64,000 nucleotides of DNA, from IMG/VR virus record IMGVR_UViG_3300028596_000009, positions 1-64,000 of that record; one strand, 5' to 3'. A model generated the notes under the pieces. The model ran no database searches, was not told where the DNA came from, and was given only the letters and a program-made list of their open reading frames with translations. Each line of letters starts with the position of its first letter. The first letter of the stretch is position 1. Shown here piece by piece: positions 1,378 to 39,272 of the stretch. Both the position numbers and the translations under genes were made by a program. The stretch is from a virus.

Positions 1378-1384
1378 GCGTCAC

Positions 1385-1389
1385 TTATC
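1385..1389 (+). promoter_or_regulatory. TTATC start-associated element
   Basis: First copy of the recurrent element: CTTATCGATTCTGGGAGGG, 20 bases before the ATG at 1410. It begins directly after the previous stop and has no obvious hairpin in front. Confidence 0.55.
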
Positions 1390-1409
1390 GATTCTGGGAG
1401 GGATGGGCA

Positions 1410-1592
1410 ATGGAGCACATCACGCACGACGTGACGTCGGTGTGGCACGTGTTCGCGGGCGGTGAGTGGCTGGCCACGGAGTACGGCGGCTACGCCCCGG
1501 TGAATGTGTGGGTCGGTGAGCGGCTGGTTCCGGTGGAACGGCGGCACATGGCCTCGTCGGTATCGGCGGCCTGCGGCGTCTGCAACAAGTGA
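1410..1592 (+). CDS. hypothetical protein, 60 aa
   Basis: ATG at 1410 after GGGAGGGATGGGCA. Small protein with a WHVFAGGEWLATEYGG beta-like core and a C-terminal CGVC pair that could be redox-active or bind metal. Preceded by a TTATC element. No family recognised. Confidence 0.7.
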   Translation: MEHITHDVTSVWHVFAGGEWLATEYGGYAPVNVWVGERLVPVERRHMASSVSAACGVCNK

Positions 1593-1605
1593 ATCCCGGT
1601 GGGGT

Positions 1606-1655
1606 TTCCGGCATGCGCGGATCACGGGGGTGCCGTGCGTGTCGGAAGTCCTATC
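1606..1655 (+). terminator. hairpin plus CTATCGG variant element
   Basis: TTCCG-CATGCGCGG pairs with CCGTGCGTG-TCGGAA (1606-1647). CTATCGG follows, a one-base variant of the TTATCG motif, then a purine-rich binding site. Confidence 0.5.
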
Positions 1656-1689
1656 GGATCCGGTGGGACCAGGAAAAGGGAGAAAGACA

Positions 1690-2052
1690 ATGCGGAAGAT
1701 CATGATGGCGCTCGGGCTGGTCGTCGCGGTGCTCATGGGCATGGGGACGGCGTCGGCGGCGGTGCGGCCGGGACCGGTCGCGAAGATCACCAAGCCGGTG
1801 ATGCGTCCGGTGGTGGTGCGGGTGTTCCACCCGTGCGACTTCAACCACAACACGGTCATCGGCGACGCGACGGAGCGTCTGTGCATGCGGGTCTGGGCCC
1901 ACGACGCGTACAGCGTGGACGGCTCGGAGACGCCCGCCGGTCCGGTGGTCGTGGTCGGGCTGATCGATGAGGCGCGGGTGGAGGGTGCCGGGGTCGCGTA
2001 CGTCCGTGAGGGGCTGCGCAACGAGGAGGCGAACTACAAGCTGCGTGACTGA
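1690..2052 (+). CDS. secreted hypothetical protein, 120 aa
   Basis: ATG at 1690 after AGGAAAAGGGAGAAAGACA. Residues 1-24 form a Sec-type signal peptide: basic MRK, hydrophobic LGLVVAVLMGMG, then ASA before AVRP, a plausible signal peptidase I site. The mature ~96 residues have two Cys that could form a disulfide, a His/Asn-rich segment and a charged tail. Export suggests action at or outside the host membrane, possibly superinfection exclusion or envelope modification; that role is inference. Confidence 0.75.
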   Translation: MRKIMMALGLVVAVLMGMGTASAAVRPGPVAKITKPVMRPVVVRVFHPCDFNHNTVIGDATERLCMRVWAHDAYSVDGSETPAGPVVVVGLIDEARVEGAGVAYVREGLRNEEANYKLRD

Positions 2053-2081
2053 TCGCGGCGTGGTCGTGTGACCACTCGGAG

Positions 2082-2134
2082 CGGCCGGGAATTGCGCGCC
2101 CGGCCGTTGCGACGGCATCACACGGTGACTTATC
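2082..2134 (+). promoter_or_regulatory. hairpin followed by TTATC element
   Basis: CGGCCGGG (2082-2089) pairs with CCCGGCCG (2099-2106). TTATC at 2130-2134 precedes the ATG at 2159. Confidence 0.6.
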
Positions 2135-2158
2135 GAGTGCGGGACGAAAGGGAGAGGC

Positions 2159-2389
2159 ATGGACACCAGGACGACGGTCGGACGCTGGGAGTCGGACGGC
2201 GGGAAGTACTGGGTGGAGCTGTACCGGGACCGGTGGGGTTACGGCTACGACGCCAAGGGGAGCGGCGGGTTCATCGGCAAGCACGAGAACGTGAGCGAGT
2301 CGGACGCGGTCGACTACATCACGGCGCGGACGGCGGGCGGTGTCGGGTACTTCCACTCAGGCAAGCGGCCCATGCTCCGCACGGTCTGA
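2159..2389 (+). CDS. hypothetical protein, 76 aa
   Basis: ATG at 2159 after GAAAGGGAGAGGC. Aromatic-rich N-terminal half (WESDGGKYWVELYRDRWGYG) suggests a small beta sheet; a short helix follows (SESDAVDYITART). Similar Trp/Tyr patterns occur in many neighbours but no domain is recognised. Confidence 0.75.
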   Translation: MDTRTTVGRWESDGGKYWVELYRDRWGYGYDAKGSGGFIGKHENVSESDAVDYITARTAGGVGYFHSGKRPMLRTV

Positions 2390-2927: not shown

Positions 2928-2947
2928 ATCGGTCGGCACATCGGGCG

Positions 2948-2987
2948 GGCAGGGGCGTGATCGTCCCTGCCGGTCCGTGTCCTTATC
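2948..2987 (+). promoter_or_regulatory. hairpin followed by TTATC element
   Basis: GGCAGGG (2948-2954) pairs perfectly with CCCTGCC (2965-2971). TTATC at 2983-2987 is followed by GATTCTGGGAAAGGGGAG, a near-consensus copy. Confidence 0.65.
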
Positions 2988-3015
2988 GATTCTGGGAAAG
3001 GGGAGAGGCAGAGAG

Positions 3016-3525
3016 ATGAACAAGATCAAGTTTGTGTCCGCGTACGACGCCGGGCATGTGCAGATGGGCGGTCACTGGCTGCGGGAGGGTGCCGCGCCGG
3101 TGATGAACAACACGCTGGACGCGTTGATGTCCCATGACCACGTGATCCTGGTCAACGCCGACGGGACCGTGACGGACAACCCGGACGGGGTGTGGGCGCC
3201 GGAGCTGAACGTCTGCGTGAACTGGGAGGGTCAGGAGGACCCGGGGACGGACGCCGACCTGATCGCGACAGCCAAGAGCGCGGGGTGGGACATCGCCTCG
3301 GGCTGGACGGGTCAGTACGGCTACTCCGGGATCGCCATGCACACGGACGAGCGGGTGGGCGGCGGTCTCGCGGAGCACGTGATCGAGACGCCCGGTTACT
3401 GGGTGGTGACGTCCCCCTCCGTGTTGCCGGGGCACTGCGTGGGGGCGGACGACGACTGCGACGAGTGCCGGATCCTGATGGAGCGCGGCGCGGACTACTG
3501 GCTGATCATGCACAAGGAGGCGTGA
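3016..3525 (+). CDS. hypothetical protein, 169 aa
   Basis: ATG at 3016, 28 bases after TTATC, behind GGGAAAGGGGAGAGGC. Acidic protein with a CVGADDDCDECRIL segment near residues 147-160 (three Cys among Asp residues, possibly metal-binding) and repeated Gly/Trp stretches. Its stop is 3 bases from the next ATG. Function not recognised. Confidence 0.8.
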   Translation: MNKIKFVSAYDAGHVQMGGHWLREGAAPVMNNTLDALMSHDHVILVNADGTVTDNPDGVWAPELNVCVNWEGQEDPGTDADLIATAKSAGWDIASGWTGQYGYSGIAMHTDERVGGGLAEHVIETPGYWVVTSPSVLPGHCVGADDDCDECRILMERGADYWLIMHKEA

Positions 3526-3528
3526 GGG

Positions 3529-3882
3529 ATGAGCAACAACTACGCGATCACGGACGCGATGCTGGCCCGCCCGGTGGTGGACGCGGACGACGTGGACCGC
3601 TTCCCGGAGATCCTGGGGAAGTACGAGGAGGGGGACCGGGTCCCGGATCACTTCGGTTCGGTGGGCGCGTTCGTCGCGTTCATGTGGTCCATGGACTCCG
3701 CCCAGGACGAGGACTGCGGGGCGGCGACGGACGCCGGGGCGAGCTGGTACGGCGTGTTCTGGTCGGATCACGTGATCCTGCGGTGCGAGGGGACGGGGCC
3801 CATCTCCGCGTGGCGGGTCGGCCCGGACTACATCGAAGCGGCGTGGGCGAAGATCCAGGACGGTGCGGTCCACCTGGTGTGA
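3529..3882 (+). CDS. hypothetical protein, 117 aa
   Basis: ATG at 3529, with the binding site AAGGAGG inside the end of the preceding gene. Strongly acidic; an ARPVVDADDVDRFPEI motif near the N-terminus and Trp-rich strands further on. Probably co-translated with the 169-aa protein upstream. Confidence 0.78.
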   Translation: MSNNYAITDAMLARPVVDADDVDRFPEILGKYEEGDRVPDHFGSVGAFVAFMWSMDSAQDEDCGAATDAGASWYGVFWSDHVILRCEGTGPISAWRVGPDYIEAAWAKIQDGAVHLV

Positions 3883-3899
3883 CCTGGTGGGGGTTCGGT

Positions 3900-3939
3900 G
3901 GCGTGCGTTGGGGGGACGTGCGCTCGCCGTGGCCTTATC
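3900..3939 (+). promoter_or_regulatory. hairpin followed by TTATC element
   Basis: GGCG-TGCGT (3900-3908) pairs with ACGTGCG-CTCGCC (3916-3928). TTATC at 3935-3939 precedes GAGTCCGGGAAATGGGAGG. Confidence 0.55.
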
Positions 3940-3966
3940 GAGTCCGGGAAATGGGAGGAAGACGGA

Positions 3967-4365
3967 ATGACGGAACTGGCGAGCAACGGGACGCCCATGG
4001 ACGTGCTGACGGAAGAGGACTGGGAGACGCCCTACGGGCTGGGCAAGTTCGACAGCATCGCGCAGGAAAAGCTGTACGTGTGGTCCCTGGACGGTGGCCA
4101 CAAGGACGAGACGGGCGGCGGGGAGTTCCCGTGGTCGTGCCTGTTCGTGCAGCCGGAGCGGGAGGCGGACCGGGTTCCGGCGCTGCGGGCCGGGGTGATC
4201 CTCACGGTGTCGACGGGTGGGGGCGTGTCCTCGGCGCGGTACGACACGGCGGAGGAACTGGCCGTCGCGTGGAAGGACCACGAGGACACCTACGCGCAGT
4301 GGTTGCACTCCGAGTGCGAGGACGGCGTCGAGTGCGACGGCTGTAACGCGTGTGAGAACGCCTGA
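3967..4365 (+). CDS. hypothetical protein, 132 aa, Cys-rich tail
   Basis: ATG at 3967 after AAATGGGAGGAAGACGGA. The C-terminus carries four closely spaced Cys (residues ~117-130, CEDGVECDGCNAC), a zinc-knuckle-like cluster. The rest is acidic with several Trp. Function unknown. Confidence 0.78.
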   Translation: MTELASNGTPMDVLTEEDWETPYGLGKFDSIAQEKLYVWSLDGGHKDETGGGEFPWSCLFVQPEREADRVPALRAGVILTVSTGGGVSSARYDTAEELAVAWKDHEDTYAQWLHSECEDGVECDGCNACENA

Positions 4366-4380
4366 TTCGGTCGGGTTGAC

Positions 4381-4422
4381 GGCGGCGCATGTCGTGAGGC
4401 GTGCGCGCGCCGTGTCCTTATC
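4381..4422 (+). promoter_or_regulatory. imperfect hairpin followed by TTATC element
   Basis: GGCGGCGCATG pairs imperfectly with CGTGCGCGCGCC. TTATC at 4418-4422 then GAGTCTGGGAAAGGGGAC. Confidence 0.55.
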
Positions 4423-4446
4423 GAGTCTGGGAAAGGGGACAGGGAC

Positions 4447-4905
4447 ATGCATGTCGAATACATCGGGGTCAACGATCGTCAGGTCGGGACGGGGACGCTG
4501 CACAAGGTGCACGCGCACTGGGAGTCGACAAAGACGGAGAAGGGGGAGGTCAAGCGGGCCGCGTCGGCGGCGGTGCGCAAGGTGGTCGGCAAGGGCGGGA
4601 GCGTCACGTTCTCGTCGTGGACGGTCGGTAACTACAACGCTCCGCGCATGGACGCGGCGATCCTGGTCCGTGTGCTGACGGACGCGCAGGTGGCGGCGCG
4701 CAAGGAACTCAAGTCGCTTCGGTTCACGGAGTGCGAGGGGCCGGGGGCCGACGGCAAGGGGTGCGGGAAGTTCCCCGGGCAGGTGGTCCGGATGACCGAC
4801 GGCACGGAGCAGCCGCTGTGTTTCGACTGCTGGAACCCGATGCGGGGGACCGGGGTCAAGGTCATGCACTACATCCAGCGTGACGGCCGGGTGCAGATCA
4901 ACTGA
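4447..4905 (+). CDS. hypothetical protein with possible zinc ribbon, 152 aa
   Basis: ATG at 4447 after GGGAAAGGGGACAGGGAC. The basic N-terminal half contains many Lys/Val residues. The C-terminal half has a Cys pair around residues 98 and 107 and a later CFDC pair (residues ~126-129), consistent with a small zinc ribbon. Such ribbons often mediate nucleic-acid or protein contacts. No family assigned. Confidence 0.78.
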   Translation: MHVEYIGVNDRQVGTGTLHKVHAHWESTKTEKGEVKRAASAAVRKVVGKGGSVTFSSWTVGNYNAPRMDAAILVRVLTDAQVAARKELKSLRFTECEGPGADGKGCGKFPGQVVRMTDGTEQPLCFDCWNPMRGTGVKVMHYIQRDGRVQIN

Positions 4906-4920
4906 GCGGGTCGGGTTCGT

Positions 4921-4962
4921 GGCGGCACGCATCGCACGGTGTGTGCGCGCCATGTCCTTATC
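4921..4962 (+). promoter_or_regulatory. imperfect hairpin followed by TTATC element
   Basis: GGCGGCACGCA pairs with TGTGTGCGCGCC. TTATC at 4958-4962 then GGCTGTGGAACCAACAAGGAAAGAGG. Confidence 0.5.
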
Positions 4963-4995
4963 GGCTGTGGAACCAACAAGGAAAGAGGTACGGAC

Positions 4996-5202
4996 ATGAA
5001 CGCGCGCGAAGAGCTGGTGGCGGCGGAGATCGCTTTCGACGAACTGACGGAGGGTGGCCGGAGCCTGGTGACGGCGGCGAGCGACCCGCAGGTGGCCTTC
5101 TGCGACGGGACGGTCACCAGGACGTGGGCGGAGGCGGCGGCGCACGCGAACCACCTGGTGGAGGTAACCCGGGAGCAGATCGCCAAGAACGAGTCCCGCT
5201 GA
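4996..5202 (+). CDS. hypothetical protein, 68 aa, helical
   Basis: ATG at 4996 after AAGGAAAGAGGTACGGAC. Predominantly helical and Ala/Glu-rich. No motif recognised. Followed within 36 bases by a gene whose leader contains CTATCGGCAACGGAACCAAGG, a degenerate copy of the element. Confidence 0.75.
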   Translation: MNAREELVAAEIAFDELTEGGRSLVTAASDPQVAFCDGTVTRTWAEAAAHANHLVEVTREQIAKNESR

Positions 5203-5238
5203 ACCTGATCTATCGGCAACGGAACCAAGGAGAGAGAC

Positions 5239-5610
5239 ATGGGCAAGCGTGTGGAGTCGGGCCGGGACGGTGTCCTGGTGGGCGGGAGCCTGGCGCAGAA
5301 CAACGTCTACATCTGGGTGATGAGCGACGAGCCGGTGTTGACCCGGATCCGCCGGATCATGGCGGGTGAGGACAGCTACCGGGGTGATCTGTCGGATCGG
5401 GAGGCGCGAGTTCTGGCGTTCGTCCACCACATCCTGTACGCGGACGACGGATCGGCGTACCGGGCGACGTGGCGGGCGTTCTACGGGGAGCCGGTATCGG
5501 GCTTCGACCCGAACATGCCGCGCAACATCCGTACGGACTTCACGCGTACGGACTTCGACCTGATCGACTGGGCGCGTCTGTGCCGCGACTTGGTGGAGGA
5601 CGGCAAGTGA
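5239..5610 (+). CDS. hypothetical protein, IDW paralogue 1, 123 aa
   Basis: ATG at 5239 after AACCAAGGAGAGAGAC. Helical protein ending in the signature FTRTDFDLIDWARLCRDLVE. The gene directly downstream ends with FTRTEFDHIDWAPLTYDLME and the 13.7-kb gene with VEHIDWEAVRNFL, so the three form a paralogous family. All share a run of helices before an Ile-Asp-Trp motif. Function unknown. Confidence 0.8.
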   Translation: MGKRVESGRDGVLVGGSLAQNNVYIWVMSDEPVLTRIRRIMAGEDSYRGDLSDREARVLAFVHHILYADDGSAYRATWRAFYGEPVSGFDPNMPRNIRTDFTRTDFDLIDWARLCRDLVEDGK

Positions 5611-5939
5611 GCGACTTCGGGACCCTGGAGCACAGCATTCGGGCGTGGCTGGAAAACGACTACCCGCTCTATCGCGAGGTGCAGCGGATCGCGGCCCGGG
5701 ACAACCGGCATCACGTGCGGACGCGGGATGTCCAGCGGCTGGTGACGAGCATCCTGTACGGGCTCAACGGGATGTCGGACCTTCGGCACCTGTACCGCAA
5801 GGCGGCGGAGGAGAAGAACCGGGAGCCCCGTTCTCCGGACTGGGCGGCGCTGGGCAAGTTCCGTGACAGCTTCACGCGTACGGAATTCGACCACATCGAC
5901 TGGGCGCCGCTGACGTACGACCTGATGGAAGGGATGTAG
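5607..5939 (+). CDS. hypothetical protein, IDW paralogue 2, 110 aa
   Basis: GTG at 5607 overlaps the stop of paralogue 1 (GTGA). C-terminal FTRTEFDHIDW matches its neighbour; the N-terminus (LEHSIRAWLENDYPLYREV) differs. A diverged tandem duplication, likely translated by coupling. Confidence 0.8.
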   Translation: MSDFGTLEHSIRAWLENDYPLYREVQRIAARDNRHHVRTRDVQRLVTSILYGLNGMSDLRHLYRKAAEEKNREPRSPDWAALGKFRDSFTRTEFDHIDWAPLTYDLMEGM

Positions 5940-5963
5940 CGGGCCCGACCGGGTTTCGGGAGG

Positions 5964-5996
5964 CCCCGGGTGACCGGGGTTTCCAGTGGCCTTATC
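5964..5996 (+). promoter_or_regulatory. terminator-like hairpin with TTATC element
   Basis: CCCCGG-GTGA-CCGGGGTTT (5964-5982) is a GNRA-type loop hairpin with a short T run. TTATC at 5992-5996 follows CCAGTGGCC, the same spacer seen before TTATC at 13677. Confidence 0.65.
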
Positions 5997-6020
5997 GGTT
6001 CTGGAACAGGGAGAAAGATC

Positions 6021-6533
6021 ATGGGAAAGACGATGAACATCAACGGGCACACGGTGACGGCGACGGGCACGACCGCCAAGGGACTGCCGGGTAACCCGGC
6101 CCTGTACCGGTGCGAGGGGTGCGGGGAGACGGTGGCCGCGCCGTCGTTCGAGAACGGCCCGTACGGGTGCCCGGGTGACCCGGCGTCCACCGTCCTCCAG
6201 GTGTGCCCGGGCGGGGAGCGGTGCGAGGGACACAGGGACACGGACTCGGCGGAGTACCGGGCGTGGAAGGAGATCGCTTCGGTGTCGGAGGACACCATTC
6301 CGACCTACCGGCACGGGGACCCGGCGGACCGTAAAACGGGGCTGGCGTACCGGGCGGCGTCGGCGTACATCGCGTGGGCGGACGGCGTGGGCATGCGGTT
6401 CTCCGTGTGGGCGCAGGAGGGGTTCAAGGTCGGCCCGGACGGCGGGAAGGTCGCGGAGATGACGTTCCGGGGCGAGTCGTGGGCGGTGTGGGTGGACCAC
6501 TTCGGGCACATCACCGCGCGGCGGGACAACTGA
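6021..6533 (+). CDS. hypothetical protein with Cys cluster, 170 aa
   Basis: ATG at 6021 after ACAGGGAGAAAGATC. A CEGCGE motif (residues ~33-38) followed by further Cys (CPGD, CPGGERCEGH) suggests a zinc-binding N-terminal half. The C-terminal half is Trp/Gly-rich beta-like. No family recognised. Confidence 0.78.
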   Translation: MGKTMNINGHTVTATGTTAKGLPGNPALYRCEGCGETVAAPSFENGPYGCPGDPASTVLQVCPGGERCEGHRDTDSAEYRAWKEIASVSEDTIPTYRHGDPADRKTGLAYRAASAYIAWADGVGMRFSVWAQEGFKVGPDGGKVAEMTFRGESWAVWVDHFGHITARRDN

Positions 6534-6548
6534 CACCGGTAGGGGTCG

Positions 6549-6594
6549 GGGAGGGTGCGGGGCCATGTGCTCCGTAGCTTCCTCTGTCCTTATC
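6549..6594 (+). promoter_or_regulatory. weak hairpin followed by TTATC element
   Basis: GGGGAGGGTGC..GCTTCCTC is an imperfect stem. TTATC at 6590-6594 then AGTCTCGGGAAGGAG. Confidence 0.45.
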
Positions 6595-6617
6595 AGTCTC
6601 GGGAAGGAGATGGACGA

Positions 6618-7016
6618 ATGAGCGGTTACCCGAAGGCGCGTTGGTCGGTCGGCAAGGACACCGTGGGTGCGTCCGTGTGGACACGGAAGCTGGAGGACCG
6701 GGCCGGAGAGGGTGGCGGGTACTTCCGCTACACGTGGGCGCGCGGAACGGGGCTGGTCGTGGTGGAGGAGCTGGTCTCGGCGGCCGGTCGGGAGCGGCGT
6801 CAGTTCCCGTACGGGGAGAAGAGCGCGTACGTGATGGTTTCCACGTTCCACGTGCCGACGGAGGTCCGGGGAGCGGACGGGCGGAGTCAGGAACTCGCAG
6901 TGGCGAAGCTGATCCACGCCGCCGTGATGGAGCGCTTCGGTCCGGTCGCGGAGTGGATCGGCTACGACAACGGCGGTCGCGCGGTGTGGTTTCACGCGCA
7001 GGTGACCGGCGCCTAG
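6618..7016 (+). CDS. hypothetical protein, 132 aa
   Basis: ATG at 6618 after GGGAAGGAGATGGACGA. Basic N-terminal half with Trp/Lys, an RERRQFPYGEKSAY segment, and a C-terminal helix (ELAVAKLIHAAVMERF). No domain recognised. Confidence 0.78.
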   Translation: MSGYPKARWSVGKDTVGASVWTRKLEDRAGEGGGYFRYTWARGTGLVVVEELVSAAGRERRQFPYGEKSAYVMVSTFHVPTEVRGADGRSQELAVAKLIHAAVMERFGPVAEWIGYDNGGRAVWFHAQVTGA

Positions 7017-7030
7017 GGGCTCGTCGAGCC

Positions 7031-7035
7031 TTATC
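7031..7035 (+). promoter_or_regulatory. TTATC start-associated element
   Basis: CCTTATCGATTTCGGGAAAAGGAG between genes only 44 bases apart; close to consensus. GGCTCGTCGAGCC just before it is a short perfect palindrome (7018-7030). Confidence 0.6.
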
Positions 7036-7060
7036 GATTTCGGGAAAAGGAGAAGGACGA

Positions 7061-7333
7061 ATGAGCGGTGCGTACTACACGGACGACATGCCCCCGCTGA
7101 TCGGGGAGGTCGTCAAGGTGCCGGACGGCGAGGGCGGGCAGTACGGGCGGTGTCGCCTGGGGTACTTCAACGGCAACCCGGACGCCGGGCACTTCGAGGT
7201 GGAGATGCCGGGCGGCGCGGTGCGCCTGGTGCCGTGGGCGGACACCCACAAGCCGTGGCCGGTGCCCTCGGGGCTGGACATCCCGTCCCGGCTCACGCCC
7301 TACACGCCGAAGTACGGGAAGCGGAGGGTCTGA
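7061..7333 (+). CDS. hypothetical protein, 90 aa
   Basis: ATG at 7061 after GGGAAAAGGAGAAGGACGA. Opens MSGAYYTDDMPPLIGEVVKV, then a compact beta-like region (GYFNGNPDAGHFEVEMPGG) with many Gly/Pro, possibly a small barrel. Stop lies 2 bases before the next ATG. Confidence 0.78.
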   Translation: MSGAYYTDDMPPLIGEVVKVPDGEGGQYGRCRLGYFNGNPDAGHFEVEMPGGAVRLVPWADTHKPWPVPSGLDIPSRLTPYTPKYGKRRV

Positions 7334-7335
7334 TC

Positions 7336-7722
7336 ATGGCGGATCGAGCGGTGTTCGTGGAACACGACGGGTACACGGTGGACGCTCACCGGACCTGCGG
7401 GGCGGAGACCTGCGTCAAGGAGGTGATGATCAAGCTGGGTGTGCCGGTTCTCGCGGCGGTGGAGCTGGAGGCCGGGAACCGGAAGTCGTACACGTTCAAG
7501 GACGGCGGCGACCTCGGGAACGTGGTCATCACGACCGGGGACCCCGGGGAGCCCAGCGGCGACGCGTACTGCGTGTGGTGCGGTGACTTCCTGGAGCACG
7601 GCACGGACTGCAAGCACACGGACAAGGGGACAGAGCTGGCGCCGCTGGCGTCCGGCGTCCTGAACCCGTACCCGGGGCGCATGAACCACAGCGACTATCC
7701 GGGCCGGTACAGCAAGCCGTGA
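7336..7722 (+). CDS. hypothetical protein with Cys/His cluster, 128 aa
   Basis: ATG at 7336, coupled to the gene before it. Cys at CGAETC (residues ~21-26) and CVWCGDFLEHGTDCKH (~78-93) could form a zinc site. Pro/Gly/Tyr-rich tail. No recognised family. Confidence 0.78.
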   Translation: MADRAVFVEHDGYTVDAHRTCGAETCVKEVMIKLGVPVLAAVELEAGNRKSYTFKDGGDLGNVVITTGDPGEPSGDAYCVWCGDFLEHGTDCKHTDKGTELAPLASGVLNPYPGRMNHSDYPGRYSKP

Positions 7723-7739
7723 CGGCGTCGGTCGGTGTG

Positions 7740-7783
7740 CGGGCGGGTTCCGGGAGTCCTCGGAGCCCGTCCGGATCCTTATC
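7740..7783 (+). promoter_or_regulatory. hairpin followed by TTATC element
   Basis: CGGGCGGG (7740-7747) pairs with CCCGTCCG (7766-7773), with inner TCCG/CGGA pairing. TTATC at 7779-7783 then GACACTGGGAAATGGAGG. Confidence 0.6.
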
Positions 7784-7808
7784 GACACTGGGAAATGGAG
7801 GAAGACGC

Positions 7809-8003
7809 ATGGAGCTGGGACACCTGCCGGAGCTGCGGGCGAAGTTCGAGAAGTTCGCGGAGGCGGCGCGGGAGCTGGACTACGCGATCCAGGTGTACCG
7901 GATGCACTCGATCTGCCCGCTGGACGAAGCGACGGTGCAGAACATCACGCTCGCCCGGCACACGGCGGACAACGTCATGCGGAACATGGAGGAGGGCAAG
8001 TGA
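7809..8003 (+). CDS. hypothetical helical protein, 64 aa
   Basis: ATG at 7809 after GGGAAATGGAGGAAGACGC. Two helices with a CPLDEATVQN turn. Stop overlaps the GTG of the next gene. Confidence 0.75.
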   Translation: MELGHLPELRAKFEKFAEAARELDYAIQVYRMHSICPLDEATVQNITLARHTADNVMRNMEEGK

Positions 8004-8281: not shown

Positions 8282-8310
8282 CGGTTTCCGTCGCGGGTCG
8301 GGGTGCAGTC

Positions 8311-8348
8311 GGGTTCCGGTGTCTGCCGGAATCCGGCCGGATCCTTAT
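8311..8348 (+). promoter_or_regulatory. hairpin followed by TTATC element
   Basis: GGTTCCGG (8312-8319) pairs with CCGGAATCC (8326-8334). TTATC at 8344-8348 then GGTTTCGGGAAAGG. Confidence 0.6.
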
Positions 8349-8372
8349 CGGTTTCGGGAAAGGTGAAACGAA

Positions 8373-8854: not shown

Positions 8855-9295
8855 ATGGAGTTCTGGCACACGCACTACGACCCGTACGGGCCTCCGCGCA
8901 AGGTGGCGGGAACGCTGCTGGACTGCGACCAGTGGATGTCGCACGACGTATCGCGCTCGGGAATCCACGCGGACTACCCGTACGCGCCCGAGCTGGTTCC
9001 GTCCAAGTCGACGGGAATGGACCCGGCGGCCGAACGCAGCCTGATGGAGCACATCACCGCCACGACGGACATGTCCCGGCCGCTGGGCATCACGGACGTG
9101 AGCGGGCCGCAGGACGACGACGGCAACGGGCGGGGAGCCCTGCGTTATCTGGTCCGGGTGTCCGCACGGACCCCGCACGGCGCCTGGGGAGTCATCACCT
9201 TCGGTCTGTACGACACGGGCTGGAACCGTGTGCCGGAGAACCCGCACCCCGGTTATCCGCACTGGTCCTCGTTCTGCGAGAACTGCGGCCACTGA
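8855..9295 (+). CDS. hypothetical protein, 146 aa
   Basis: ATG at 8855 preferred over 8846 because AAGAGG then lies ~9 bases upstream rather than abutting the codon. Long His/Tyr/Pro-rich N-terminus, a beta-like centre (RGALRYLVRVSARTP) and a terminal FCENCG pair of Cys. No family recognised. Confidence 0.75.
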   Translation: MEFWHTHYDPYGPPRKVAGTLLDCDQWMSHDVSRSGIHADYPYAPELVPSKSTGMDPAAERSLMEHITATTDMSRPLGITDVSGPQDDDGNGRGALRYLVRVSARTPHGAWGVITFGLYDTGWNRVPENPHPGYPHWSSFCENCGH

Positions 9296-9327: not shown

Positions 9328-9681
9328 ATGAGCACCTTCAAGTACTTCAAGCCTGCTGAGCTGATGCAGTACGGCGCCGGTGCCCGGGACTTCGAAACGG
9401 TGATCGGCCGCAAGGGCGCGGACGCCGAGCGGGTCGGGCTGAACAACGCCGCCAGGATCACCCGCACGCGGGAAGGGTTCGCCCGCAAGCCGGAGCAGAC
9501 GTGGAACGCCCGTTACGGCATGGGGCTGTACGGCAAGACGATCGACGGCGTCGAGTGGACGCAGGGCGCGCACCCGGACGCCGAGGACGGCATGGTGACG
9601 GTCCGGTTCGACGACGGGACGCAGGAGTACATCAGCCGGAAGGATCTGCTGTGCGTGGAGTTCGTCGAGATCGGTAAGTGA
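9328..9681 (+). CDS. hypothetical protein, 117 aa
   Basis: ATG at 9328 after GAACAAGGAGAAAGACACC; CTATCCGTTCTGGAAC upstream is a degenerate copy of the TTATC element. Basic middle (NNAARITRTREGFARKPEQT) and a C-terminal beta-like region with DDGTQEYISRKDLL. No domain recognised. Confidence 0.78.
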   Translation: MSTFKYFKPAELMQYGAGARDFETVIGRKGADAERVGLNNAARITRTREGFARKPEQTWNARYGMGLYGKTIDGVEWTQGAHPDAEDGMVTVRFDDGTQEYISRKDLLCVEFVEIGK

Positions 9682-9778
9682 CGGGCCGGTCTTCGCGGCT
9701 TATCCGGTCTGGGTGCCGGGTCGGATGAGCCGAGTGGACTTACCCGCTGGGTGAGTACTGGAAAGGGAGGAAGGCGTC

Positions 9779-11228: not shown

Positions 11229-11259
11229 TCGGTTGCGGCCGGGGGATGCATGAGGCGCC

Positions 11260-11264
11260 TTATC
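11260..11264 (+). promoter_or_regulatory. TTATC element, long leader
   Basis: CCTTATCGGGTCTGG lies 53 bases before the ATG at 11318, about twice the usual spacing; the insert CTTCCTCCAGTCGTCATCTCGGC separates it from the GGGAAGGAG binding site. Confidence 0.45.
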
Positions 11265-11317
11265 GGGTCTGGTGCTTCCTCCAGTCGTCATCTCGGCGAC
11301 GGGAAGGAGAGCTGAAC

Positions 11318-12088: not shown

Positions 12089-12118
12089 GGGCACCCGGCT
12101 TATCGATTCCGGGTGCCC
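12089..12118 (+). promoter_or_regulatory. TTATC element inside a perfect hairpin loop
   Basis: GGGCACCCGG (12089-12098) and CCGGGTGCCC (12109-12118) form a perfect 10-bp stem; the loop is CTTATCGATT. Elsewhere TTATC follows the hairpin, so this copy presents the motif single-stranded in RNA. Confidence 0.65.
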
Positions 12119-13089: not shown

Positions 13090-13093
13090 CGGG

Positions 13094-13098
13094 TTATC
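13094..13098 (+). promoter_or_regulatory. compact TTATC element
   Basis: GGGTTATCAGGAAAGGGAAAGACC fills nearly the whole 25-base gap. This short form lacks a hairpin and has A after TTATC; the same compact form recurs at 15747, 23683 and 27796. Confidence 0.6.
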
Positions 13099-13114
13099 AG
13101 GAAAGGGAAAGACC

Positions 13115-13624: not shown

Positions 13625-13648
13625 AGAGTCTGGTCGGGCTTCGGGAGG

Positions 13649-13681
13649 GCGCGGCTTGCCGCGCTTTCCAGTGGCCTTATC
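13649..13681 (+). promoter_or_regulatory. terminator-like hairpin with TTATC element
   Basis: GCGCGG-CTTG-CCGCGC-TTT (13649-13667), then CCAGTGGCC and TTATC at 13677-13681. Same organisation and spacer as 5964-5996, also upstream of or near an IDW-family gene. Confidence 0.65.
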
Positions 13682-13724
13682 GGCTGTGGGCCGCCGGACG
13701 GCGGCTTGGCGGGAAGGGGAAGCG

Positions 13725-14581: not shown

Positions 14582-14652
14582 GGGCGCGCACGATGGATCT
14601 CTAGTAGGTTCTCGTGTGCGTCCTTGTCGTTATCGTGAGATGGCGGCTTATC
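14582..14652 (+). promoter_or_regulatory. long hairpin plus two TTATC copies
   Basis: GGGCGCGCACGA (14582-14593) pairs over 12 positions with TCGTGTGCGTCC (14612-14623). TTATC occurs at 14630-14634 (right after the hairpin) and again at 14648-14652, before CTTTCGGAACTG and a GAGGAG site. The doubled element is unique here. Confidence 0.6.
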
Positions 14653-14684
14653 GCTTTCGGAACTGAACACGAGGAGAAAACGAC

Positions 14685-15727: not shown

Positions 15728-15746
15728 TCCACCGCCCGCCGCAGGC

Positions 15747-15751
15747 TTATC
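15747..15751 (+). promoter_or_regulatory. compact TTATC element
   Basis: GCTTATCAGGAAAGGAAGAGGAC directly before the GTG at 15768. Confidence 0.6.
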
Positions 15752-15767
15752 AGGAAAGGAAGAGGAC

Positions 15768-16061: not shown

Positions 16062-16076
16062 CTCGGCTGGGGTTCG

Positions 16077-16116
16077 GGGGTACGCGGCCCGTTCCGTGTG
16101 CCCCAGTGCCCTTATC
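16077..16116 (+). promoter_or_regulatory. hairpin followed by TTATC element
   Basis: GGGGTACGCGG (16077-16087) pairs with CCGTGTGCCCC (16094-16104). TTATC at 16112-16116 then GGGTCAAGGAAAGAGGAG. Confidence 0.6.
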
Positions 16117-16140
16117 GGGTCAAGGAAAGAGGAGAAGGCG

Positions 16141-16643: not shown

Positions 16644-16656
16644 CGGGGCCTGCGGC

Positions 16657-16661
16657 TTATC
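16657..16661 (+). promoter_or_regulatory. compact TTATC element
   Basis: GCTTATCAGATCAAGGAAGAGGAGAAAGAG; the same GATCAAGGAA-type spacer precedes paralogue 1 (GGGTCAAGGAA), so the leader was duplicated with the gene. Confidence 0.6.
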
Positions 16662-16684
16662 AGATCAAGGAAGAGGAGAAAGAG

Positions 16685-18424: not shown

Positions 18425-18753
18425 AGACTCTGGCGGAGCGGATCGCGGAGGACGGGCTGACGGCCACCTCCATCCCGCTTATCAGCGATGGGCCGGTTCA
18501 GCTCCACGGTGTGGAGGTCCACTGTCCCGGCCAGCGTTCGCTCCGGCTTCCTGACGGCTTCCCCTCGTCGGAGGAGCCGACGGTGGAGCAGGTCATGCGG
18601 TACGTGCTGGACGGGTGCAAGACGGTGAACCGGGAGCGCCCCGAGGAGATGGAGATCTCCGCCTACCTGTACTGGGTCCGCATCGACGCGAAGCTTTTCG
18701 ATCTTCTGGGGTCCGCACGGAAGTGGGCCTATCTCAACGAGACGGAGTGGTGA
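18421..18753 (+). CDS. hypothetical protein, 110 aa
   Basis: GTG at 18421 overlaps the previous stop. Basic/helical N-terminus, Pro-rich centre and aromatic C-terminal half. It contains TTATCAGC at 18479 inside codons, judged coincidental. Confidence 0.76.
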   Translation: MKTLAERIAEDGLTATSIPLISDGPVQLHGVEVHCPGQRSLRLPDGFPSSEEPTVEQVMRYVLDGCKTVNRERPEEMEISAYLYWVRIDAKLFDLLGSARKWAYLNETEW

Positions 18754-19121: not shown

Positions 19122-19571
19122 ATGGCGCGCAGCAGGATCACTCTGGAGACGGTGATCGAGGTCATGGACAAGGTCATCGCGGGCACACCGGCGGGCGCGG
19201 ATTCCCGGGTCGGCCGGAAGCTCGGTGGCCGGTACGCGGAGCACGGTAAGCCGTGCTGCCTGGTCGGCGTGATGCTTATCGAGTTCGGGGCGTCGGTCGC
19301 CACGCTCAAGGAGCTGGACCGCGAGGCGAAGTGGATCGAGGAATCGGTTCACCCGTACTGGCGCCGGTTCGAACCGCTCGCTCTGAGCTTGCTCGCCTTC
19401 CTCCAGCGCCAGAACGACAGCGGCGATTCGTGGGAGGAGGCAGCCCTCGCCGCCTTCACCGGCTCCTCGTACTGGAGGGACCTTCTGACCGGCGGAGAGG
19501 CGTACTACCTGGACCGGGTTTTCCGGGGACGCCCCTGGCTCACGGCCGACAAGGTGAGGAAGTGGAGCTGA
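19122..19571 (+). CDS. hypothetical protein, 149 aa
   Basis: ATG at 19122 after GTAGGGGGATCCG. Helical, with GKPCCLVGVML near residues 44-54 recalling the CG-LCLAGK core of the 20.2/21.3 kb family, so it may be a distant member. C-terminal half acidic with Trp. TTATCGAG at 19275 is within the coding frame. Confidence 0.77.
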   Translation: MARSRITLETVIEVMDKVIAGTPAGADSRVGRKLGGRYAEHGKPCCLVGVMLIEFGASVATLKELDREAKWIEESVHPYWRRFEPLALSLLAFLQRQNDSGDSWEEAALAAFTGSSYWRDLLTGGEAYYLDRVFRGRPWLTADKVRKWS

Positions 19572-21218: not shown

Positions 21219-21280
21219 GGCGCGCACTCTGGTGGGTGCGCGCCTTCCTCATGCCCCGCGTTTCGGTGCGGCGGCTTATC
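21219..21280 (+). promoter_or_regulatory. perfect hairpin followed by TTATC element
   Basis: GGCGCGCAC (21219-21227) pairs perfectly with GTGCGCGCC (21236-21244), then TTCC. TTATC at 21276-21280 precedes AGGAAATGAAGGAG. Confidence 0.65.
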
Positions 21281-21301
21281 AGGAAATGAAGGAGAAAGAT
21301 C

Positions 21302-23676: not shown

Positions 23677-23682
23677 GCGCGG

Positions 23683-23687
23683 TTATC
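23683..23687 (+). promoter_or_regulatory. compact TTATC element
   Basis: GCGGTTATCAGAAAGGGGAAGACACC fills the 28-base gap. Confidence 0.6.
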
Positions 23688-23704
23688 AGAAAGGGGAAGA
23701 CACC

Positions 23705-25892: not shown

Positions 25893-25902
25893 GCGCGTCC
25901 GC

Positions 25903-25907
25903 TTATC
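25903..25907 (+). promoter_or_regulatory. TTATC element
   Basis: GCTTATCAGCAACGGAAAGGGGAGGG directly before the GTG at 25930; no hairpin. Confidence 0.55.
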
Positions 25908-25929
25908 AGCAACGGAAAGGGGAGGGAAC

Positions 25930-27128: not shown

Positions 27129-27182
27129 GCGCACAGGGACCCCTCTGTGCGTGTGCCGTGTCGCCTTCGTCGGAGGCTTATC
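27129..27182 (+). promoter_or_regulatory. hairpin followed by TTATC element
   Basis: GCGCACAG (27129-27136) pairs with CTGTGCGT (27145-27152), extended by GGGA/CCCCT. TTATC at 27178-27182 then AGGGAGGGGAAGGGC. The hairpin is nearly identical to that at 20168. Confidence 0.62.
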
Positions 27183-27198
27183 AGGGAGGGGAAGGGCA

Positions 27199-27785: not shown

Positions 27786-27795
27786 CGGCCGCCGG

Positions 27796-27800
27796 TTATC
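27796..27800 (+). promoter_or_regulatory. compact TTATC element
   Basis: CCGGTTATCAGAAAGGGGAAAGAGG; almost identical to the 23683 copy. Confidence 0.6.
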
Positions 27801-27816
27801 AGAAAGGGGAAAGAGG

Positions 27817-30139: not shown

Positions 30140-30161
30140 CGCACCCTCACTGACCTGCGGG

Positions 30162-30196
30162 TTATCAAGAACGGGATCCTTCGGGGTCCCGTTCTT
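30162..30196 (+). terminator. strong hairpin with TTCG loop, after TTATC
   Basis: TTATC at 30162-30166 comes first here. AAGAACGGGATCC (30167-30179), TTCG loop, GGGTCCCGTTCTT (30184-30196): 13 bp with one wobble. Order is reversed relative to the usual hairpin-then-TTATC. Best intrinsic-terminator candidate at the end of the 27-30 kb unit. Confidence 0.75.
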
Positions 30197-30210: not shown

Positions 30211-30271
30211 TTGACCAACGAAGAGTTGTCGCTGTACAACTTGACGTACACGATGACCAACAGGATATAGT
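30211..30271 (+). promoter_or_regulatory. tandem sigma-70-like promoters
   Basis: TTGACC (30211-30216) with TACAAC (30235-30240), 18-base spacer; and TTGACG (30241-30246) with TATAGT (30266-30271), 19-base spacer. The stretch is AT-rich compared with its surroundings. It directly follows a terminator and precedes the ParB-like gene, the clearest promoter in the window. Confidence 0.7.
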
Positions 30272-31887: not shown

Positions 31888-31951
31888 TCACCGCCTGATG
31901 CGGTGAACAGTGGCGGCGCCGGGCGGTTCTTCCGTCCGGCGCCGTCTTATC
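31888..31951 (+). promoter_or_regulatory. two hairpins then TTATC element
   Basis: TCACCGC-CTGAT-GCGGTGA (31888-31906) then GGCGCCGGGCGG-TTCTT-CCGTCCGGCGCC (31915-31943, 12 bp). TTATC (31947-31951) follows immediately, then AGGAAGGGGAAAGAC. Confidence 0.68.
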
Positions 31952-31966
31952 AGGAAGGGGAAAGAC

Positions 31967-32661: not shown

Positions 32662-32711
32662 GCCCAGCCCTTCGCAGGGGGTTTTGCGGGGTTCGAATCC
32701 CCGTCTGGGCG
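32662..32711 (+). tRNA. tRNA-like mini-structure (degenerate tRNA or 3' tRNA fragment)
   Basis: GCCCAG (32662-32667) pairs with CTGGGC (32705-32710) as an acceptor-like stem, and CGGGG-TTCGAAT-CCCCG (32687-32703) is a canonical T arm. Only ~18 bases lie between, enough for one small stem-loop (CCCT-TCGC-AGGG) instead of D and anticodon arms, so it cannot be a normal tRNA. It could be a deleted tRNA, a tRNA-like RNA, or a tRNA 3'-end copy of the kind used in phage attachment sites. It sits between two rightward genes. Confidence 0.5.
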
Positions 32712-32728
32712 CGGAAAGGAGACGTCTC

Positions 32729-35198: not shown

Positions 35199-35236
35199 GG
35201 GCCGCCTGCCTTCGGGTGGGCGGCCCTCGGCTTATC
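35199..35236 (+). promoter_or_regulatory. strong hairpin (TTCG loop) then TTATC element
   Basis: GGGCCGCCTGCC (35199-35210), TTCG, GGTGGGCGGCCC (35215-35226). TTATC at 35232-35236 then AGAAACGG; the following leader is unusually long (start at 35289). Confidence 0.68.
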
Positions 35237-35288
35237 AGAAACGGTGCACACGTTCTCCACCGCTCAGCACCCGGACAGAAGAGGAGAG

Positions 35289-35594: not shown

Positions 35595-35626
35595 CCGGTT
35601 ATCAGAAACGGAAAAAGGAGAAGGAC

Positions 35627-36187: not shown

Positions 36188-36189
36188 CG

Positions 36190-37458: not shown

Positions 37459-37711
37459 GGGCCCCTTCCCGGGTCCTCCGGCCCTGCTGTACAGTCCAGC
37501 TCACAAGACCCGTCCGGCCTCTGCGTGCATGCTGCCGGGTTATGGATGACCGAAGGTCCACTGGTGCTCAGGCCGGTGGGCCTTCGTCATTTCCTGGTTC
37601 AGAGTACCCGCCAGCGGGTATTGAGTTTCCTTTCGACCGTCCCTGCTGTGACATTTTTACGCTTTAGAAAAGAGGCAGAAACTAGGCCCCGAATCAGTCA
37701 GGAGAATCTTG
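37459..37711 (+). other. non-coding region with strong hairpin
   Basis: No credible gene. GAAGGTCCACTGG (37552-37564) pairs over 13 positions with CCGGTGGGCCTTC (37573-37585), a terminator-like hairpin followed by GTCATTT. The stretch at 37640-37690 is AT-rich (CATTTTTACGCTTTAGAAAAG) and probably holds the promoter of the membrane-protein gene, although no clear -35/-10 pair was found. Confidence 0.55.
37552..37585 (+). terminator. long hairpin terminator
   Basis: 13-bp stem with G-U pairs and an 8-base loop, followed by GTCATTTCC; ends the 35.6-37.5 kb gene run. Confidence 0.65.
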
Positions 37712-37921
37712 GTGCGTTTCATTCACTTAGCCCAGTGTGCGGCCTTCTCACTGTTTGCTCTGGTCACCACCTTCGCCCTCGGGTATGCCCTCAGCAGGGA
37801 TCTTGTCCCATCGGTGATCGTTGCAGTTGCATGCTCGGCCATCACCCTCCTCTACACGGGCACGGTGTACTGTTGGCTTTACCGCCGCACGCGTGCTGGA
37901 ATCCACCGGAAGTCACGGTAA
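37712..37921 (+). CDS. two-helix membrane protein, 69 aa
   Basis: GTG at 37712 has AGGAG seven bases upstream; TTG at 37709 is too close. Two hydrophobic helices (residues ~6-25 and ~32-52) separated by a short SRDLVPS loop, then a basic tail (RRTRAGIHRKSR), giving N-in/C-in topology. Size and form resemble phage holins, but no lysis genes are adjacent in this window, so holin is only a possibility. Confidence 0.7.
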   Translation: MRFIHLAQCAAFSLFALVTTFALGYALSRDLVPSVIVAVACSAITLLYTGTVYCWLYRRTRAGIHRKSR

Positions 37922-37980
37922 GATCTTTGCGTTAACGTGGTGGGAAACACCATTGATGATGCAGAGAAAGGGGACACACT

Positions 37981-38433
37981 GTGGCCCGAGTACGTGATGT
38001 TGTTGTGCGTGACGCCCCCGATGGTCCCCCCGGACAGGGTGTGTACACGACCAAGCTCCAGGCGCTGGCCGTGGATCCGACCAAGACGGTGGTCGACGCA
38101 CGGTTCGACACCCTCAAGGCCGTCGAGGACGCCGCATTCCGCGTGAACAGCGGACAGCGGAAGGACTGGCCGAACGACAAGTACTACGCCGCGTTCGACT
38201 ACGACATCGCCGACGAGTCGATCGAGGGCAGCAGCGCCGGGAAGTGGCTGCTTCTGATCGGTCTGAGGGAGCACGCCCCGGTCGGCTGGCAGCCGGTGAT
38301 CAATGCCCCCGGCAGCCGCAAGCGGCGGAAGTCGGCCAAGGCGGAGACAGAGATCGAGCAGAGCGTCGAGCAGGACGCCGACGAGCAGTCCGAGGCGGAG
38401 AACGCCGCCTTTTTCCAGGAGCCGACGGAGTAG
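37981..38433 (+). CDS. hypothetical protein, GLRxHxPxGW paralogue, 150 aa
   Basis: GTG at 37981 after GCAGAGAAAGGGGACACACT. LIGLREHAPVGWQPVI at ~residues 90-105 is shared with the 35289 protein. The C-terminal ~45 residues are low-complexity, basic then acidic (RKRRKSAKAETE, then Glu/Asp-rich). Followed by a strong terminator. Confidence 0.78.
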   Translation: MARVRDVVVRDAPDGPPGQGVYTTKLQALAVDPTKTVVDARFDTLKAVEDAAFRVNSGQRKDWPNDKYYAAFDYDIADESIEGSSAGKWLLLIGLREHAPVGWQPVINAPGSRKRRKSAKAETEIEQSVEQDADEQSEAENAAFFQEPTE

Positions 38434-38463
38434 AACCTCTGGTTCACCTTGCGGTAGCCGCAG

Positions 38464-38498
38464 AGCCCATCCTCACGGAAAATGAGGGTGGGCTTTGT
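38464..38498 (+). terminator. intrinsic terminator
   Basis: AGCCCATCCTCA (38464-38475) pairs with TGAGGGTGGGCT (38483-38494), then TTGTCGTT. Confidence 0.75.
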
Positions 38499-38790
38499 CG
38501 TTGCCATCGTCTAGTTGACGGAGATCGAATCGTTCTGACGTGCGTGTTCGCCCTGTCACGCTACGTGAAGTCACCTTGCGGACCTGCGAGTTGACCAAGG
38601 AAAGACTCAACTTCCCTACCGGTTTCCGAGTTCTACTCCCAAGGTGATTCGATGGAACCTGGCACACGAGGGACGTACCCGTGGCACATGCGGTACCTTC
38701 GGCTTGCCGACACAAAAACGATCCTCCCGGTCGGGGGGTTTCCGGTCACACGGGGAATGAGTCTCACCGGGTCAGCGCAGGGGAGTGGGG
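38499..38790 (+). other. non-coding region with possible promoter and second hairpin
   Basis: No gene with a ribosome binding site. TTGACG at ~38516 and TTGACC at ~38592 are -35-like but lack good -10 partners. GAGTTGACC..GACTCAAC is a near-palindrome. CCTCCC-GGTC-GGGGGGTTT (38723-38741) is a terminator-like hairpin close to the next gene. Confidence 0.45.
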
Positions 38791-39183
38791 ATGGCAAGAC
38801 CTTCGGGGCCGCTGAGGAGATACAGCGTCTACTGTGTGTGGCCGGTGCATCCCGGCCAGTGGAGGCTGACGGTCGACATGATCGACGGACCTACGGCAAG
38901 AGAGAGTGCGGCGGCACTGCGGAGGATGAACTACCCGGTACGGGTTGTCACGATTCTGCTCCGCCCCACCACTGCCCGGACTCTCGAAGCACGTTTCCTG
39001 GCCGCCGAATGGGACAGATACGGCAGGGTGGTCTACCGCTACGACGGCGAATACGCCAAGTACGTGGCACCGTGGGCTCTGGGGGAAGAGCCCCTGGAAA
39101 AGGAGAAGGCCGGTGGAGCAGCAGGAAGGATCGTTCGACGACCTCGTGAGCCTGGTGGAATCGCTGCCCGACAGAAGCGATGA
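38791..39183 (+). CDS. hypothetical protein, 130 aa
   Basis: ATG at 38791 after GCAGGGGAGTGGGG; GTG at 38785 is an alternative. Beta/alpha N-terminal ~85 residues (YSVYCVWPVHPGQWRLTVDM). The last ~25 residues (Arg/Gly-rich) overlap a second gene and may be a run-on. No family. Confidence 0.65.
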   Translation: MARPSGPLRRYSVYCVWPVHPGQWRLTVDMIDGPTARESAAALRRMNYPVRVVTILLRPTTARTLEARFLAAEWDRYGRVVYRYDGEYAKYVAPWALGEEPLEKEKAGGAAGRIVRRPREPGGIAARQKR

Positions 39184-39232
39184 CGTGATGTGGCCGGTGC
39201 TCGACGACTACGACTACGAAGAGCGCGACTGA
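39113..39232 (+). CDS. small acidic protein, 39 aa
   Basis: GTG at 39113 after AAAAGGAGAAGGCCG. Strongly acidic (LVSLVESLPDRSDDVMW, then LDDYDYEERD). Overlaps the preceding gene by 71 bases in another frame, but has the better binding site and composition in that stretch. Confidence 0.6.
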   Translation: MEQQEGSFDDLVSLVESLPDRSDDVMWPVLDDYDYEERD

Positions 39233-39238
39233 ACATCA

Positions 39239-39272
39239 GGGACCGGTCCTTCGGGGCCGGTTCCGCTTTATC
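39239..39272 (+). promoter_or_regulatory. TTCG-loop hairpin with last TTATC element
   Basis: GGGACCGGTCC (39239-39249), TTCG, GGGCCGGTTCC (39254-39264), then GCTTTATCGTGAGG. TTATC at 39268-39272 is the rightmost copy of the element found. Confidence 0.65.

Follow-up and report, generated by a model that had tools for sequence, protein, structure and literature searches.

The stretch of DNA analyzed here, hereafter the window, comprises bases 1 to 64,000 of the 166,823-bp virus record IMGVR_UViG_3300028596_000009 (G000), the remainder of which was also examined; our subject is a short repeated element, cTTATC-R-N5-GG, that lies ahead of small genes in its left 40 kb. This metagenomic record, possibly incomplete at its ends, has a G+C content of 65%. 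Its major capsid protein is 74 to 76% identical to those of the Streptomyces phages Satis, Kradal, JustBecause, Kela, and Frankenweenie, which are cluster-BM phages (PMC6687918, PMC10652959), and judged from its sequence G000 is a 166.8-kb relative of that cluster, a large virus of soil bacteria. Gene order in G000 runs opposite to that of the cluster-BM records, and by tblastn synteny its left 40 kb is the counterpart of the right arm in those records. This hyperplastic arm carries about 107 small plus-strand genes, nearly all of them orphans, with starts predicted by our own codon-model caller rather than taken from annotation. Among the 104 left-arm proteins scanned there was no informative Pfam match, and the seven PHROG families that were matched include none with a named function; as probes for close relatives, left-arm proteins likewise returned no match.

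A repeated bipartite element in the left arm

A single bipartite motif, cTTATC-R-N5-GG, is present in 30 intergenic plus-strand copies, 4 to 5 intragenic copies and a few variants, nearly all within 1 to 39.3 kb (Table 1), giving a total of about 35 in G000, all in the same orientation and ahead of small left-arm genes. A first-pass annotation of the window had listed 30 TTATC words, all of which we recovered on the plus strand (8344 being corrected to 8345); its list was sound as far as it went, but it missed a copy at 9700 and gene-internal copies at 128, 9145, 9253, 18479, and 19276. The element set used below consists of the 30 intergenic copies, the 31st intergenic TTATC being the tandem copy at 14630. 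TTATC occurs 38 times on the plus strand and 7 times on the minus strand of the window, versus 8 and 7 times in the other 102.8 kb, so that the whole record holds 46 plus-strand and 14 minus-strand words, 31 of the former intergenic within 1 to 39.3 kb.

The association of TTATC with start codons stands, as neither shuffled sequences nor related genomes, the comparison named in the annotation as its refutation, reach its frequency. Among left-arm genes preceded by a gap of 20 nucleotides (nt) or more, 24 of 54 have TTATC at positions -45 to -12, where 0.84 would be expected and where 1,000 dinucleotide shuffles gave a maximum of 6; right of 40 kb, only 1 of 99 genes with such a gap has a near-start TTATC. 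A position-weight scan at a threshold of at least 10.5 bits returned 38 matches on the plus strand of the left arm versus 11 in all other combinations of strand and region together. An unanchored expectation-maximization motif finder recovered CTTATCgg.TccGG with a log-likelihood of 175 versus 44 for shuffled input; every second upstream region of the left arm contains this motif, and nothing comparable was found in nine relatives. Occupancy follows gap size, with elements in 20 of 27 gaps of at least 45 nt, in 9 of 22 gaps of 20 to 44 nt and in none of the 50 shorter gaps between abutting genes, and CTATC or GTATC variants explain part of the gaps without an element. Off the arm, a lone strong element-like site lies on the minus strand at record position 110442 (L011:6429-6445), oriented with a lone minus-strand gene. 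No other gene outside the arm is accompanied by a strong site of this kind running in its own direction, and this one (gene 250, at 110 kb) shows neither a regulator signature nor a family match.

A logo of the 30 intergenic copies, in which TTATC is invariant by choice of anchor, shows C at -1 in 24 of 30, a purine at +5 in 29, A or T at +8 in 28, G at +11 in 27, and G at +12 in 29. TTATC is the one AT-rich block in otherwise GC-rich DNA, and upstream, from -60 to -2, no position exceeds 0.4 bits, leaving no -35-like information. The seeming classes TTATCG(A/G)TTCTGGG and TTATCAGAAAGGG share a single motif and spacing, and what separates the two is mainly how far they lie from ATG. All intergenic left-arm copies are oriented with transcription, and the GG stays fixed 6 nt from TTATC while the element itself can lie anywhere between 20 and 147 nt from the start codon. 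The annotation had put this distance at 20 to 35 nt, which fits most copies (20 to 38 nt in 24 of 30), but six listed copies lie 48 to 147 nt from their starts. Where copies are start-distant or intragenic, the GG is kept in 11 of 11 listed (11 of 12 if 14630 is included; binomial P of about 1e-10), and TTATC elsewhere is followed by GG at the element spacing in 2 of 10 and 1 of 14 cases, that is, 3 of 24. Because it is kept in copies without a nearby ribosome-binding site, the GG is more than a Shine-Dalgarno sequence. The purine-rich site previously described after TTATC has a constant part, TTATC-R-N5-GG, and the purines past the GG are ordinary Shine-Dalgarno sequence that is lost in start-distant copies. 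Five start-distant copies carry GTG at offset 12 to 13, the position at which a leaderless start would fall.

The full-element pattern, with the reversed pattern as a control, occurs at 12 places in G000 and at none in 37 related records, in which homologous genes are preceded by a hairpin or a plain gap instead. One orthologous hairpin does carry single TTATC-like words, in Frankenweenie and in the relative G030. A more distant relative, G031, carries a 25-bp dyad, TTATC (or TTGTC/TTCTC)-N15-GATAA, at 12 sites that deviate at no more than one base, and at almost none with other spacings; several of them have a terminator-like hairpin on one side and a start on the other (loci L133 to L140, e.g., L138:8036-8060). 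Because G031 carries a different version, the TTATC half-site may predate both arrangements. Pattern scans of viral contigs (26 matches in one) and of genomes (9) gave scattered matches, and the minority inspected were attributable to chance. As an observation of its own, the same arm of cluster-BM relatives (L017 to L019 and others) repeats GGCCTAGG(TCA) just past -10-like boxes, as in Satis TTGACG...TACGATGGCCTAGG, possibly a regulatory signal belonging to the relatives themselves.

A covarying hairpin family at gene boundaries

The first-pass annotation had placed a hairpin immediately before many elements, which describes about half of the copies. About 10 of these have the element built into the stem: in the gaps at 2983 to 8345, 13677, and 16112, ten in all, TTATCG supplies the 3' side of the foot of a hairpin 58 to 66 nt long with about 20 base pairs, and the 5' side opposite it is a conserved GGTCGG or GGTAGG. 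In a MAFFT alignment of the ten G000 hairpins, both partners of a pair had changed in 43 cells versus 19 after shuffling, and slid controls collapsed; the foot alone covaried more weakly (10 versus 5.1 shuffled).

A covariance model was built from these ten hairpins, followed by a second model that included relatives, which found 94 hairpins in 1.4 Mb, all in the corresponding arm and all on its transcribed strand. G000, Satis, JustBecause, Frankenweenie, and five metagenomic relatives carry 9 to 12 copies each, the median spacing being 3 nt from the stop codon upstream and 21 nt to the start that follows. Family-wide, double changes occur in 22 of 23 pairs (123 cells versus 34 shuffled) in an alignment that was fitted to the model, with counts inflated by relatedness and E-values that are rough, as the models are home-made. 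Two 1x1 mismatches flanking a C-G pair (UUCGGGAG / UUCCAGUG) recur across many members. The hairpin differs from an intrinsic terminator in having no U-tract and in a stem that passes straight into the ribosome-binding site. No Rfam family matches it above the gathering score, and as far as Rfam and the literature consulted go, the family appears undescribed. The 3' foot of the relatives is CGACCG or ACCATCGG, not CCTTATCG, and from this difference it appears that the TTATC motif was introduced into a stem already in place, with G-U wobble keeping the pairing. By this comparison, the hairpin is a separate feature, older than the TTATC motif.

Table 1. Elements, family hairpins and the canonical promoter located in the window
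Feature	Position	Strand	Remark
Element in called reading frame	127..140	+	18.6 bits
Element	1384..1397	+	25 nt before ATG 1410
Family hairpin	1595..1660	+	45 bits
Variant element CCTATCGGATCCGG	1650..1663	+	Hairpin foot, ahead of gene at 1690
Element	2129..2142	+	29 nt before ATG 2159
Family hairpin	2928..2992	+	TTATCG is 3' basal strand
Element	2982..2995	+	Within hairpin 3' foot
Family hairpin	3883..3944	+
Element	3934..3947	+	Within hairpin 3' foot
Family hairpin	4366..4427	+
Element	4417..4430	+	Within hairpin 3' foot
Family hairpin	4906..4967	+
Element	4957..4970	+	Within hairpin 3' foot
Family hairpin	5944..6001	+
Element	5991..6004	+	Within hairpin 3' foot
Family hairpin	6535..6599	+
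Element	6589..6602	+	Within hairpin 3' foot
Element	7030..7043	+	Short gap; only small adjoining hairpin
Family hairpin	7727..7788	+
Element	7778..7791	+	Within hairpin 3' foot
Family hairpin	8293..8354	+
Element	8344..8357	+	Within hairpin 3' foot
Intragenic element	9144..9157	+	13.9 bits
Intragenic element	9252..9265	+	12.5 bits
Family hairpin, weaker	9681..9749	+	40 bits
Element	9699..9712	+	Start 79 nt away; no Shine-Dalgarno link
Element	11259..11272	+	Start 58 nt away
Element	12099..12112	+	Start 49 nt away
Element, TTATCAGGAAAGG type	13093..13106	+	No hairpin
Family hairpin	13629..13686	+
Element	13676..13689	+	Hairpin foot; start 48 nt away
Element	14647..14660	+	Weaker tandem TTATC at 14630 without GG
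Element	15746..15759	+	No hairpin
Family hairpin	16062..16121	+
Element	16111..16124	+	Within hairpin 3' foot
Element	16656..16669	+	No hairpin
Intragenic element	18478..18491	+	15.5 bits
Intragenic element	19275..19288	+	19.5 bits
Element	21275..21288	+
Element	23682..23695	+	No hairpin
Element	25902..25915	+	No hairpin
Element	27177..27190	+
Element	27795..27808	+	No long hairpin
Element	30161..30174	+	147 nt to next start; GG in 5' arm of terminator-like hairpin
Sigma-A-like promoter TTGACG ... TATAGT	30241..30271	+	Ahead of gene at 30309
Element	31946..31959	+	Downstream of strong but different hairpin
Element	35231..35244	+	Downstream of different hairpin; start 57 nt away
Element	35598..35611	+	No hairpin
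Weakest element	39267..39280	+	7.9 bits; downstream of terminator-like hairpin

Candidate functions of the element

Our reading starts from the observed motif with its fixed spacing, orientation, and position, its confinement to one arm, its absence from relatives, and the covarying hairpin. We propose, with a probability of roughly 0.48, that cTTATC-R-N5-GG serves as a promoter specific to the phage and lacking a -35 box. The -10 region would be TTATCR (or CTTATC) and the transcription start the G pair 6 to 7 nt downstream, and host RNA polymerase would read the element via a factor that the phage supplies or modifies. About 30 short left-arm gene groups would thereby each have their own start of the same type, so that the arm would be expressed as one class, presumably in timing as well. 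In about 10 gaps the promoter would be written into the 3' foot of the older intergenic hairpin common to cluster-BM relatives, and the hairpin may end or trim the upstream message, the two together making a composite end-and-start cassette.

The first-pass annotation had offered SAS-like, promoter -10, repressor or antiterminator, and RNA or translation readings; our results favor a DNA-level site, likeliest a promoter -10, over a translation site, because the internal spacing is fixed while the start distance varies and the GG is kept where it has no Shine-Dalgarno role. A promoter is favored among DNA-level sites because of the -10-to-+1 spacing, the location at gene-group boundaries, the co-orientation, the AT-rich block, the scarcity of canonical promoters, and the precedent of phiEco32. 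A strict promoter scan of 52 left-arm gaps found one canonical sigma-A-like promoter, which is not at an element; it lies in the 169-nt gap ahead of the gene at 30309, which has no element near its start. Several results weigh against a promoter. Sigma-70 region 2 (PF04542) had no match and region 4 (PF04545) only one of 10.9 bits (E 0.067), below cut-off, and the longest proteins included no T7-like polymerase, an absence that is unproven, since the PF00940 profile control was silent. Copies 20 to 22 nt from ATG would have a leader of just 8 to 10 nt, a promoter at 30162 would be pointless ahead of the terminator-like hairpin that follows this copy, and relatives run the same arm without the motif.

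The best rival is that the element binds a phage regulator of elongation or initiation in the manner of a stoperator, damping or timing early genes, which we consider unlikely. The site would be asymmetric, 13 to 14 bp long and oriented with transcription, and its geometry would suit two protein domains one helical turn apart. Like the stoperators of cluster A phages, which are also 13- to 14-bp asymmetric sites in 20 to 35 copies oriented with transcription in short gaps, the element is a bipartite asymmetric 14-mer with a variable center, in about 35 copies of one orientation, in short gaps and in some cases intragenic (PMC9283540); cluster A stoperators differ in sequence, belong to temperate phages with an immunity repressor that halts elongation when bound, and are spread genome-wide (PMC9283540), whereas the copies in G000 are confined to one arm rather than distributed over all operons. 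The G031 dyad, with its CTTATC half-site, looks like the site of a dimeric regulator, and an HTH_17-like protein (104212-104445) has its only detected relative in G031, but its match is weak (17.5 bits, below cut-off). Profiles PF00589, PF00239, and PF13614 found no integrase, serine recombinase, or ParA in a record that may be incomplete, and the cluster-BM phage Frankenweenie is reported to be without integrase or repressor (PMC10652959).

Alternatively, the element may act in RNA, where an endonuclease or RNA-binding protein would recognize UUAUC...GG ahead of the ribosome-binding site for processing or translation control and the hairpins would be part of the processing structure. About 10 copies do lie inside the covarying stem, with compensatory changes in the pairs flanking TTATC (columns 5-67 and 6-66), and 24 of 30 copies are 20 to 38 nt from ATG. 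We nevertheless regard this reading as quite improbable: about 20 copies have no such stem, the GG is kept inside genes and where no ribosome-binding site follows, the covariation of the basal stem is modest among units that are probably paralogous, and relatives retain the hairpin without the motif, so that hairpin function is independent of TTATC. An RNA-level role for the hairpin itself is possible and would leave the hairpin-free and intragenic elements unexplained. That the element has no function, being an intergenic cassette duplicated by copying or recombination whose likeness reflects ancestry and not selection, is very improbable. Long flanks are common to 7779/8345, 5992/13677, and 3935/4418/4958, but outside the 14 bp most copies are alike in nothing, TTATC-N6-GG is exact in unrelated flanks, and compensatory changes distinguish the hairpin stems. 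Returning to the promoter, we consider doubtful, and put forward only tentatively, a fuller version in which host polymerase with a phage factor not recognizable as a sigma serves a promoter class of about 35 sites that arose in one lineage and became G-U wobble-paired into the foot of an ancestral, undescribed RNA marking cluster-BM gene boundaries.

A number of other candidates were tried and set aside. On the opposite strand, a WhiG-type -10 (GCCGATAA) would fit only the TTATCGGC copies; for a DnaA box (TTATCCACA), the bases after TTATC do not match; with TTATC as a -35, a -10 placed 17 nt further would land in the coding start; and universal pairing of TTATC with the upstream strand applies to about 10 copies but not to the other 20. 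The RNase E site is RN-CNU, which five copies with G at -1 would not fit. For a promoter of a single-subunit RNA polymerase, no such enzyme was seen among the longest proteins, an absence left unproven by the silent PF00940 control.

Repeated start-associated sequences are a recognized and unexplained feature of actinobacteriophages, of which the G000 element is a further version with its own sequence. The nearest arrangement is the 18-bp motif TAGaCTATaGGTgTaAgC of Microbacterium cluster EC, present genome-wide in 12 copies 21 to 30 bp upstream of starts (PMC7302621), which is likewise asymmetric, in one orientation, in small gaps upstream of the ribosome-binding site and without assigned function, but has another sequence and no described hairpin foot or bipartite spacer with GG. 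The start-associated sequence (SAS) of cluster K, a 13-bp GGGATAGGAGCCC at the ribosome-binding site 3 to 9 bp from ATG (PMC3203893, PMC11373665), had been proposed as an analogue. It is similar in arrangement, as a repeated start-associated sequence in one orientation with some copies tied to an upstream inverted repeat, while consensus, start distance, and hairpin all differ; CTTATCgg.TccGG is a different sequence from GGGATAGGAGCCC, as the annotation had itself remarked, and lies 20 to 38 nt from the start in 24 of 30 copies and 48 to 147 nt in the others. Extended SAS hold SigA -35 and -10 boxes, which the G000 elements lack, and the element falls outside both SAS and extended SAS.

Beyond these groups, phiEco32 gp36-type promoters consist of a single element, tAATGTAtA, in six copies with the start 6 to 8 bp downstream, read by a phage-encoded sigma (PMC8948821); like the G000 element they have one conserved -10-like block and no -35, whereas in G000, with a fixed G at the predicted start position, no phage sigma was detected. 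T4-type PeSL promoter-terminator cassettes (Arbiol 2010, Comeau 2014), as far as their citation in PMC4177764 and PMC4503421 conveys, similarly place a stem-loop and a promoter-like motif in the intergenic gaps of a hyperplastic region of orphan genes; PeSL carries a T4 early promoter sequence, whereas the G000 motif sits inside the stem foot and its function there is predicted. The palindromes of cluster O differ from the element in defining features (PMC4351075).

In large actinobacteriophages, orphan genes under poorly understood control take up tens of kilobases, and one 14-bp signal ahead of about 30 gene groups, together with relatives without the signal, makes the control of such a "dark" arm directly testable. 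If the promoter reading is true, it specifies the exact points at which transcription should begin and implies a factor that is missing from the present picture. The covarying boundary hairpin occurs in the isolated, cultivable phages Satis, JustBecause, and Frankenweenie and is therefore testable at once.

Other features of the record

Outside the left arm, TAGATGATGGCCA occurs in three copies (L009:5500-5550, L009:18800-18858, and L013:9980-10030) ahead of genes at record positions 69550, 82858, and 154030, a possible second promoter class. Within the arm, the product of the gene at window positions 27817-28173 is 95% identical to a stretch of the relative G020 and 80 to 86% identical to Satis and G031, and because this far exceeds the identity of its neighbors, recent exchange among the four is suggested. 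Between genes at 32662-32712 of the window lies a tRNA-like T-arm (GGTTCGAATCCCC), which ARAGORN did not call and which weakly matches a tRNA-like Rfam family.

Further genes include a small tellurium-resistance-like set in the window, with TerD-domain and TerF-type von Willebrand A genes at 60551-61939 and 40495-41556, and a phage protein with TROVE (Ro60-like) and von Willebrand A domains at 67807-69405 of the record (L009:3807-5405). A stand-alone FtsK gamma domain protein, a KOPS-reading winged helix, is encoded at record positions 156354-156533 (L186). Between 40 and 167 kb of the record, one protein matches the Acb2/Tad1 hairpin domain, a cyclic-nucleotide sponge of anti-defense type, and another matches a phage ProQ C-terminal-like domain.

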